Source: Cytophagia bacterium (GTDB lineage Bacteria > Bacteroidota > Bacteroidia > UBA7662). Taken from it: a DNA stretch of 34,950 nt. This document shows positions 20,947-24,144 of the stretch, piece after piece. The position numbers were made by a program, and so were the translations under genes. The stretch is from positions 1 through 34,950 of the forward strand of contig RFOZ01000004.1 of the NCBI GenBank assembly GCA_009926405.1, given 5' to 3'. The notes below the pieces were generated by a model. That model was given only the letters and a program-made list of their open reading frames with translations. It was not told the DNA's origin and did not search any database. The stretch's first letter is position 1. Every line of letters starts with the position of its first letter.

Positions 20947-21825
20947 CTAAAGGGTTTGGAGGTAAGCCAAAACAGCCTCGACTTCCATCGAGTCACCTTG
21001 CCATCGACCGGCTTCTCCGGCCCCTTTTTGGTAGTGTTCTAACACATCTCGAAGTGTTGCAGCTTGTCCATCATGAAAATAGGGCGCTGTTTTCTGTAGA
21101 TTTCGCAATACCGGGGTTCGAAGCCGTCCCCGGTCCTCTTCCTTCAAGGTCACAGCGGCCCGACCCAATTCATTCATTCGGTTTGGGAGGTTGAGGTTGT
21201 AGTACCCCCCATCGCTTTTGGCCTCTCCGTTATGGCAACGAATGCATGCGGCTTCTCCCTCAAAGAGCGATCGGCCCCTAGCAATCAGGGTAGGGTTGTT
21301 GGGGGGTGCGGTGTTCAAATCCTGGCGACCTTGTTCGCTCAGTTCCAATAGATAACGCTGCAAGGTCAACAAATAGGCCGAGGCTGGATCGGTGGATGGG
21401 TAGAGTCGCGTCAAAAGTTCATGATAGCCAGGATAAGCCTTTAACTTTTGATTTAAGGACCTCGGATCAAAAGCCATATCACCGTGCGCAGTGATGGCAG
21501 CCAAAACAGCCAAGCTTCCTATTTGGAGGGGTGGTACTCCCCCATCCGCCATGAGAGGCAGGTTAGTGGGTAGTCCCCATAAGGTCGGTGTATTCCTTCG
21601 CGTTTGGCGAGCAAAAGCTCCTACGGACAAAGGCAGTGTATCGGCAAAGGCATGCTCAGGACGATGACAAGAAGCACAGGAAACACGACCATCCGCCGAA
21701 AAGCGCTCATCCTCGAACAAAACGCTGCCCAAGGCGAGTTTTTCTGCATCCGGATTGGTGTGGGGTCGGCAAGCCGCAAAGCCCCCCAACAAGGCCAACA
21801 GAATTACGAACCTAAGGGGCGACAA
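20947..21825 (-). CDS. Diheme cytochrome c peroxidase/MbnH-like lipoprotein (copy 1)
   Basis: Lipobox LLGGFAAC; two heme motifs CASCH and CIRCH; C-terminal '[32 protein letters not shown]'. Confidence 0.9.
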
Positions 21826-22897
21826 AATGGGGATTCAAGGCCAAGGTTGTATCGGTCAGGGATTGCAAAAAGGCAACCAAATCTGCTTTGTCTTGGGGGC
21901 TTAAGCGCAGTCCCCCGTTTTGGACCCGGAGATTGGCGTTGAGTGTGGAACTGGATTGCACTCCGCTGTTGTAATGTTCCACAACTTCTTCGAGGGTCGC
22001 GAACCGACCATCGTGCATATAAGGCGCCGTTAATCCCACATTTCGCAAAGAGGGGGTCTTGAATTTGCCCCGGTCGGAGGCCAACCCGGTAACCACCTGA
22101 AATCCAGGTTTGAGAACCGAATCCAACCCGTTGTTTTCAAAAGAACGATTGGTAAAAAGGGCGGTTCCATGGCAATGAAAACAATCCGCCCCTACGGGTC
22201 TTCCGGAACCAGGTGCGGAATATTCCCGCATAAAAAGGTCAAAGCCACGCTGTTCGGAAGGTGTTAGGTTGGCGAGTCCCATACGGGATAAATCAAAGCG
22301 TGATCGGTACGAAGTAAGACTCAGAAGGTACTGCTCCAAAGCCCATTGAAGTCGCTGTATCGTGATACTTTCATCCCCAAAGGCCTTCCCAAACGCGACT
22401 CGATAGGCTTGGTCTCCGCTTAAACGCCCCAAAGCCTGCCCCAAGGACAAATGCATTTCCACCGGATCCTGAATCGGCTGCAAAACCTGATCCCTCAAGT
22501 TGGGCGAACGCCCATCCCAAAAAAATCGATTCGCCCATAACAAATTAAAAAGAGGCATCGCGTTAAATTTCCCCAAGGCCCCACCGATCCCCTTGCTATA
22601 AACCACGGTATCCGAAAAGGCCCGGTTGGGATGATGGCAGGAAGCGCAGGATACCGTGTAATCCAAGCTCAGTGTTTTGTCAAAAAATAAACGTTTTCCC
22701 AGCGCCACTCCTTCCACCGAGGGCGGATTGTCCTGAGGCCAAGGCAGGTTGGGAAATCCTAGACCGGGCGGGGGACTATCCGGAACAAAAGTCGTTGGTT
22801 TGGGATAGGAGGTCGGTTCATCGGGACCACATGATACCAGGAGTCCGCACAAGGCCCCAAGCCAAATTCCAAAAATTCTTGAGCGCAAGACCAACAC
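21812..22897 (-). CDS. Diheme cytochrome c peroxidase/MbnH-like lipoprotein (copy 2)
   Basis: Lipobox-like GLLVSC; heme motifs CASCH and CFHCH; C-terminal '[32 protein letters not shown]'. Confidence 0.9.
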
Positions 22898-22907
22898 GAT
22901 TGGTACC

Positions 22908-23693
22908 TTAGGGTGTTACAAGGCCTTTCCAAACATAGGCCGATGCCAAATTGTAAGCGAGTTTGGAAGCCACCCGATCTCCCAGCGAAGAATGCGAAAA
23001 GGAGGAAGAATCGGTGATGGAATGGGTGTGGGTTCCATCAAAAAATCGACGCATTTGCAATTGGACTGAGAGATCAGCCGAGGGACCTTCCAAAGCCACG
23101 GATGAAAACGGCAAAATCACGGTCCGTAACATTTCATCACCCCCCAGATGATACGAAAATCCTCCGTTCACCGGCAGGTTAGGACGCTGATACTGCCCTT
23201 CCATTTTGAAGAAAATATAACCACTGTTCCAATTCCAATGCATATGTGCACTGTTCAGCAAGGAAAGAGGATGGCTGGGTGGCCAAGAAGCTGGATCGCT
23301 GTGATTTAGAAGGGAATCCAAACCAACACGAAACCTTAGGGCCGTGTAGGTCCCGGCAGGAACCAAGGGAGCCAAACGCCAACGGGATTGGGTTTGTCGC
23401 TCCAAATCTGCATAAAAAACGGCATCCGGGAATTCCAGCCAAGAGCTGTCGGTACGCTGCAAGGCAAAACCGCTGAGATAATATTGACAATGATTAATTT
23501 CAATTTGATTCATGAGAGTGGGTAACCACGCACGATTTAGTTCCAACGATGACGAATCGTAACGGTGGTCCAACCGCAAATACAAACCGGCTTCGTTAAC
23601 AACCGGTGGATGCGGTGGGTGGGTATCGCACGATTGCATGGCAGCCGAGAGAAACAACCAAGCAAGTCCAAAAAATTTAGAGAACGTCTTCAT
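22908..23693 (-). CDS. MbnP-like copper-associated lipoprotein
   Basis: Lipobox-like SAAMQSC. Core 'LYLRLDHRYDSSSLELNRAWLPTLMNQIEINHCQYYLSGFAL...TALRFRVGLDSLLN...SAHMHWNWNSGYIFFKMEG' matches the MbnP pattern as I recall it. Adjacent to diheme peroxidases, as expected for MbnP/MbnH. Confidence 0.75.
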   Translation of the reverse strand: MKTFSKFFGLAWLFLSAAMQSCDTHPPHPPVVNEAGLYLRLDHRYDSSSLELNRAWLPTLMNQIEINHCQYYLSGFALQRTDSSWLEFPDAVFYADLERQTQSRWRLAPLVPAGTYTALRFRVGLDSLLNHSDPASWPPSHPLSLLNSAHMHWNWNSGYIFFKMEGQYQRPNLPVNGGFSYHLGGDEMLRTVILPFSSVALEGPSADLSVQLQMRRFFDGTHTHSITDSSSFSHSSLGDRVASKLAYNLASAYVWKGLVTP

Positions 23694-24144
23694 CGTTGTT
23701 GGCTAAAGGGGTGCGGTAAAGATCTGGTTCATCCATCGACCAGAGGCATTGAAGTCCTTCACCATCAAAAAGCATCCAACGAACGGGGGCTGGAACCAAA
23801 ACCAACTTGGCTTTGCGACTGCTTTGATTTTCAACGACCCAATCCACGATAACACCTTCGTCCATGGGGAGTTCATAGGCCCCTTCTTCCACCACCGAAT
23901 CCCGGTAAACAGCTGCCATATAGGCTGTTGGCAGCAGGACTTCCTGACCTGGAAAATGAACCTCGTGTAATTTCTGCAAAATGCTCTCCAAAAAGGCACC
24001 GTGTTCGCGATTAAAGGCATCCTCCGCATCCAGCAATTGGTCTTCGGCCTCGTCGTATTCAGGGTCGGCGTAGCCCAATTCGGCTAAGCGGTTCCTCAGG
24101 GTTACCAATTGCAACAAATCTTCATCAATAGGGTTGATTTCCAC
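23677..24144 (-). CDS. Conserved hypothetical acidic protein
   Basis: Intact ORF (MEINPIDEDLLQLVTLRNRLAELGYADPEYDEAEDQLLDAEDAFNREHG...VLLPTAYMA...DEGVIVDW...KLVLVPAPVRWML). GTG at 24144 is preferred over TTG at 24174 because a TAnnTTTG element overlaps the longer start. Confidence 0.65.
   Translation of the reverse strand: MEINPIDEDLLQLVTLRNRLAELGYADPEYDEAEDQLLDAEDAFNREHGAFLESILQKLHEVHFPGQEVLLPTAYMAAVYRDSVVEEGAYELPMDEGVIVDWVVENQSSRKAKLVLVPAPVRWMLFDGEGLQCLWSMDEPDLYRTPLANNDEDVL

Follow-up and report, generated by a model that had tools for sequence, protein, structure and literature searches.

The locus described here raises the question of why a member of the Bacteroidota should place two non-identical diheme enzymes next to a single MbnP-like lipoprotein. 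An earlier note, made from the sequence of the window (the whole stretch analyzed, 34,950 nucleotides of contig RFOZ01000004.1), had proposed a copper module outside any methanobactin operon, with two enzymes possibly acting on different Trp residues or in sequence. Based upon the homology, fold and conservation of the proteins, the order of the genes, and the residue losses and purifying selection seen in them, all of which were computed here, we favor, with moderate confidence, a stand-alone MbnP–MbnH module with a dedicated second MbnH paralogue, in which the first enzyme, termed alpha, would make kynurenine at W153 of the MbnP-family protein, a copper site would form, and the second enzyme would play an accessory role.

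The gene set itself is present as that note had described it, with minus-strand open reading frames, lipoboxes, two CxxCH motifs per enzyme and a 17-bp overlap between the acidic gene and the MbnP gene:

22908..23693, minus strand: MbnP-family lipoprotein gene (261 aa, lipobox SAAMQSC, MHWNWN motif)
21812..22897, minus strand: alpha enzyme gene, MbnH-family diheme lipoprotein (361 aa, lipobox GLLVSC)
20947..21825, minus strand: second (beta-position) enzyme gene, divergent MbnH/MauG-family diheme lipoprotein (292 aa, lipobox GGFAAC)
23677..24144, minus strand: acidic cytosolic protein gene (GTG start, pI 4.07)

The alpha and second-enzyme genes overlap by 14 bp and a 10-bp gap lies between MbnP and alpha, while scans of the locus for promoters and terminators returned nothing exceeding chance. 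The MbnP–alpha–second enzyme block is intact in 13 genomes from four genera, all belonging to the window's family; in three further genomes of the family parts of the block are present at the ends of contigs, and one genome, 87% complete, lacks it altogether. The second-enzyme gene is found in every family genome whose locus is uncut by a contig end. Given this constant gene order and dN/dS values of about 0.06-0.22 across the three genes, the gene set stands well beyond chance.

The first issue is whether the lipoprotein is truly related to MbnP. It matches Pfam PF20243 (3e-35, 122 bits; gathering cut-off 27), and its score against the MbnP equivalog model TIGR04052, which is defined by four Cys and a WxW motif, is 45.8 bits, below the curated cut-off of 140. 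The four-Cys motif is missing from the window protein, whose only two Cys are the lipobox residue C22 and C69. A PDB search with the single sequence yielded no meaningful match; a profile of 19 relatives matches Methylosinus MbnP (7L6G, 2.6e-4) in an alignment where the WNW, the Met before it and the NHS each fall opposite the same residues. The AlphaFold model of the window protein (pLDDT 91.7) points in the same direction, as chains of 7L6G are its sole Foldseek matches in the PDB with E < 0.001 (2.6e-9), at a modest TM-score of 0.52, a fold match that does not establish site geometry. The proposed MbnP homology is thus borne out by both profile and fold. Three sites are of particular interest:

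23229..23237, minus strand: WNW motif, residues 153-155, with W153 (predicted kynurenine position) and W155, aligned to the WNW of Methylosinus MbnP
23301..23303, minus strand: His131 codon, candidate copper ligand, aligned to the NHS of Methylosinus MbnP
23241..23243, minus strand: Met151 codon, candidate copper ligand, aligned to the Met of Methylosinus MbnP

The first Trp of the MbnP WxW motif reportedly becomes kynurenine, and Cu(I) is said to be bound in MbnP beside one His and one Met. W153 is invariant in 58 aligned MbnP relatives, at identities down to 18%, which supports our main reading. MbnP-family proteins that lack this Trp, such as those at L048:6730-7485 and L049:5409-6164, have no diheme gene nearby, which likewise speaks for it. 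Two points count against our main reading, namely that the candidate copper ligands come from one alignment and that three MbnPs (loci L198, L205 and L207) have Val at position 153 despite a nearby diheme gene. Other loci carry variations of their own: a gene with a TonB-receptor plug domain lies near the MbnP-family gene of L048, and the MbnP at L112:4528-5484 carries a type IX secretion sorting domain at its C-terminus, a sequence feature that suggests surface delivery by a route other than a lipid anchor.

The next issue is whether alpha is equipped to oxidize such a Trp. Alpha matches CCP_MauG (PF03150) at 8.5e-49 and its best PDB match is Methylosinus MbnH (6E1C, 2.4e-46). Against the MbnH model TIGR04039 it scores 228.7 bits (9.6e-68), below the curated cut-off of 362.85, and by this measure it is a relative of MbnH and not an equivalog. 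The same applies to the cassette as a whole: judged by these profiles, the window MbnP, alpha and the second enzyme are members of broad families and not curated equivalogs. Alpha retains the complete set of residues known from the PF03150 superfamily, i.e. two CxxCH motifs, the sixth-ligand Tyr, the Trp between the hemes and the distal Gln/Pro/Glu:

22634..22648, minus strand: alpha heme motif 1, CASCH, residues 84-88 (sequence)
22169..22183, minus strand: alpha heme motif 2, CFHCH, residues 239-243 (sequence)
22517..22519, minus strand: alpha inter-heme Trp127 codon, within FFWDGR (alignment; role per PMC6405878)

Alpha also evolves under purifying selection (dN/dS 0.07-0.12). Since both window enzymes belong to the CCP_MauG family, they could in principle be ordinary periplasmic peroxidases that came to lie beside MbnP by chance. 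We consider this highly improbable. The sixth-ligand position is occupied by Tyr in both window enzymes and in 118 of 123 enzymes neighboring MbnP, whereas classical CcpA (1IQC) has Met; diheme–MbnP adjacency is conserved in most loci sampled across the class; and the two enzymes, both at this locus, are the only CCP_MauG proteins found in the window's genome (78% complete), alongside one MbnP. It was correct, then, to view both enzymes as MbnH/MauG-like. Neither of the two outcomes named beforehand as fatal to the proposal, a lipoprotein unrelated to MbnP and a pair of enzymes that both group with classical CcpA and do not co-occur with MbnP, was observed.

How the two enzymes relate to one another becomes clearer from a wider sample, which comprised 98 DNA stretches around MbnP genes of the class and 80 loci with relatives of the second enzyme, with 129 diheme enzymes adjoining MbnP in the alignment. 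The trees separate one set containing the window alpha and, less certainly, Methylosinus MbnH from a second clade, termed beta (SH-aLRT 90-96); the placement of 6E1C differs between the two trees. The inter-heme Trp is present in 82 of 85 alpha enzymes versus 3 of 30 beta enzymes, and beta enzymes outside the window genus mostly keep the distal residues (Gln in 23, Pro in 28 and Glu in all 30 of 30). Beta enzymes of the Chitinophagaceae score at least as high as alpha on TIGR04039 (289 vs 246 bits). As beta enzymes of other families match their alpha neighbors on this model, we regard both groups as MbnH-family and do not claim alpha alone as the true MbnH. Alpha and beta occur together at 26 loci. 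Of these, 13 belong to the window's family, and the other 13 come from outside it, among them Edaphocola, an Ignavibacteriota MAG and members of several further families. Their gene orders are MbnP–alpha–beta, MbnP–beta–alpha (as in Edaphocola, of the Chitinophagaceae), or MbnP flanked by alpha and beta. The recurrence of two non-identical diheme enzymes beside MbnP across Bacteroidota is therefore supported. This division of MbnP-linked enzymes into alpha and beta groups, drawn from sequence comparison, is new here; a literature search that left the main MbnP papers outside its scope found no description of alpha/beta pairing, and an earlier notice is possible. A raw Fisher test that compared dual with single loci for Trp loss (p 0.004) was not relied upon, since near-copies and one clade drive the result. 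Among the sampled loci there are also alpha-like enzymes in which the distal Gln/Pro/Glu segment is deleted or changed (L046, L098, L099, L103, L107, L111, L116 and L124), and these mostly adjoin MbnPs with MxWPxxMGGGYHF in place of MxWxWNxGYIF. At L120:5091-11631 and L095:4941-6534, two or three MbnP genes share one or two diheme enzymes.

The second enzyme of the window is a more divergent protein. It matches CCP_MauG at 3e-28, does not reach the curated cut-off of TIGR04039, and as a single sequence matches the family more weakly than alpha, while a profile of its positional orthologs has 6E1C as best PDB match (5e-55). The residues concerned are as follows:

21664..21678, minus strand: second enzyme heme motif 1, CASCH, residues 50-54 (sequence)
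21232..21246, minus strand: second enzyme heme motif 2, CIRCH, residues 194-198 (sequence)
21547..21549, minus strand: Ala93 codon replacing the inter-heme Trp, within LMADGG (alignment)
21031..21033, minus strand: Tyr265 codon, axial-ligand position kept (alignment)

In the alignment the second enzyme has A/G/A/D where alpha has W/Q/P/E, such that neither the inter-heme Trp nor any of the three distal residues (Gln, Pro, Glu) is retained. The Gln position is uncertain owing to a three-residue insertion nearby, but no Gln occurs where the spacing would place it. Of its relatives in the window genus, three keep the Trp and share the other losses. Gln103, Pro107 and the distal-pocket Glu are conserved across bCCPs, MauG and BthA, and changes at these positions harm the peroxide-binding step (PMC6405878). 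By comparison, BthA forms bis-Fe(IV) without an inter-heme Trp (PMC6405878), so loss of that Trp alone does not mean inactivity. What counts against the second enzyme as an independent peroxidase is consequently the loss of the distal residues more than that of the Trp. Both CxxCH motifs and the Tyr are nonetheless retained and dN/dS (0.10-0.22) is near that of alpha, which indicates a working gene.

The second enzymes of the window genus form a long branch that lies outside beta in the best trees, although a joint clade with beta remains acceptable under an AU test (p 0.08); this placement counts against our main reading. The second enzyme is orthologous to beta by gene position only, its tree placement being long-branched. 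This branch, together with the Chitinophagaceae scores above and the loci where beta adjoins MbnP without alpha, would fit a scenario of redundant paralogues, in which beta would be an earlier or alternative form of MbnH that catalyzes the same reaction under different conditions and, in the window genus, is in decay. This scenario is unlikely in our estimation, given the purifying selection just mentioned, the presence of the gene at every uncut locus of the family, and the co-retention of both enzymes across several families. At about a dozen loci beta is the only diheme gene adjoining MbnP within the stretch examined, from which it follows that beta is probably able to act alone in other lineages; this counts against our main reading.

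An additional dimension is provided by the inheritance of MbnP. In the MbnP tree, one supported clade of 51 rows takes in all 43 beta-partnered proteins, and the remaining 53 rows include none. A further position is relevant here:

22992..22994, minus strand: His234 codon (His in 43/43 beta-partnered MbnPs and 11/61 alpha-only MbnPs)

His152 and His131 are often present in beta-partnered MbnPs as well. We considered whether His131, His152 and His234 had arisen in adaptation to beta and set the idea aside, because the association is strong but confounded with descent and amounts to 3-5 independent pairs. As the beta-partnered MbnPs are one lineage, the data show co-inheritance and not repeated adaptation. 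Co-inheritance of two enzymes with a single MbnP clade is also what one would expect if both were fully active on MbnP at different or successive steps, e.g. with alpha converting W153 to kynurenine and the second enzyme oxidizing it further or modifying W155 or another residue. The invariance of W155 in 28 of 28 dual-locus MbnPs and the largely intact distal residues of beta outside the window genus are compatible with this scenario as well. We nevertheless find it rather doubtful, as the second enzyme of the window genus has lost the very residues tied to the peroxide-binding step, and no Trp beyond W153 and W155 is common to dual-locus MbnPs across families. An additional Trp as a second oxidation target was rejected on the latter grounds, and the suggestion that the two enzymes act on different Trp residues is weakened accordingly. 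Of the original idea of two non-identical enzymes, the recurrence with MbnP holds, whereas equal partners working in sequence now appear less likely than an enzyme plus an accessory, since the window's second enzyme is without residues considered necessary for peroxide activation in this superfamily.

The acidic protein had likewise been included in the proposed module, a placement that its distribution does not bear out. Of the 21 genomes of the order, 20 carry its gene, which resides elsewhere in the genome in a third family of the order and also occurs in some sampled genomes without MbnP. The protein has no Pfam match and no signal peptide was seen; its AlphaFold model is confident (pLDDT 87.6) and finds no PDB fold match. 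We therefore rejected it as a module component and judge it to be a neighbor, not a functional part. The gene precedes the MbnP block, and its 17-bp overlap with MbnP is not general, as an aldehyde dehydrogenase gene lies between them in two other genera and in a sister family (e.g. L041:4954-6315 and L058:4405-5784). Relatives of the acidic protein are also scattered in other families (L222, L230-L234). No known copper gene was found among the genes beside the cassette in the window's family, which counts against our main reading. Two further proteins recur near MbnP in the wider sample, at 20 loci each, and neither has a Pfam or NCBIfam match. One, not in the window cassette, is an exported protein of ~300 aa, mostly with an N-terminal CDxCGC motif (L115:7766-8680, L186:6879-7805 and 18 others). 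The other is a small protein with a CxNxxxPxxxCxGxC-like motif (L186:4509-4907 and 19 others), which by its sequence possibly handles metal.

The genomic background is consistent with a stand-alone system. A search for methanobactin MbnB found no match in the window's genome (1.24 Mb, 78% complete), in accord with the view that the module lies outside a methanobactin operon. The genome encodes c-type cytochrome assembly proteins, so the cell should be able to make these hemes. A heme-copper oxidase subunit was not found in this 78% complete genome; 19 of 21 genomes of the order encode the oxidase, indicating that the cell has a copper enzyme to supply. A link between the cassette and a missing cytochrome oxidase was dropped, because the relatives have the oxidase and the gap is probably due to incompleteness.

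Several characterized systems provide useful comparisons. The MbnP–MbnH pair of Methylosinus trichosporium OB3b (7L6G, 6E1C) shares with the window the MbnP fold, the WNW, the NH and M positions and an adjacent MbnH-type diheme gene; the window differs in its lipoproteins, its lack of the four-Cys motif, the second MbnH-family enzyme and the absence of an MbnB match. CorA–CorB and MopE–SACCP of methanotrophs similarly combine a surface copper protein bearing a Trp-derived kynurenine with a co-transcribed diheme CcP-like gene (PMC3912023), kynurenine in the window being a prediction. However, CorA/MopE have no marked sequence similarity to MbnP (PMC3621798), one enzyme is involved, and the copper site consists of two His plus kynurenine. 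MauG resembles the window enzymes in its diheme fold and axial Tyr, and alpha in its inter-heme Trp and Gln/Pro/Glu, but its substrate is methylamine dehydrogenase and the window enzymes score far below the TIGR03791 cut-off. Like the second enzyme, BthA of Burkholderia lacks the inter-heme Trp and keeps Tyr–His ligation (PMC6405878), whereas it retains the distal Gln/Pro/Glu that the second enzyme, tied to MbnP, has lost.

Based upon these comparisons, several steps can be envisioned for the favored module. Firstly, the MbnP lipoprotein would be exported. Secondly, alpha, with its full catalytic set, would oxidize W153 of the WNW to kynurenine, following the precedents of Methylosinus and CorA/MopE. 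By the same analogy, this kynurenine would let MbnP bind one copper ion together with surrounding His/Met. Thirdly, the second enzyme would work on the same MbnP, presumably not as an independent peroxidase in the window genus and most likely as an accessory diheme subunit, either as an electron/hole relay or as a partner of alpha in a complex. We infer kynurenine formation, copper binding and this physical partnership; the accessory role is suggested by the residue losses, the purifying selection and the strict co-occurrence. Copper uptake would be a plausible purpose of such a module. More generally, and quite tentatively, one Bacteroidota MbnP lineage may possess a two-enzyme, kynurenine-forming copper system comprised of one catalytic enzyme and a Trp-less partner, which in some genera would have become a heme-bearing pseudo-peroxidase serving as a relay or scaffold.

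So far, copper sites built on kynurenine have been described in a few methanotrophs, and the present loci bear on how widely such sites occur and on how a diheme enzyme without an inter-heme Trp delivers oxidizing power to a protein substrate. The occurrence of Trp-containing and Trp-less MbnH with one MbnP lineage offers natural comparisons among loci with alpha only, beta only, or both, which may inform the roles of the inter-heme Trp and the distal residues.
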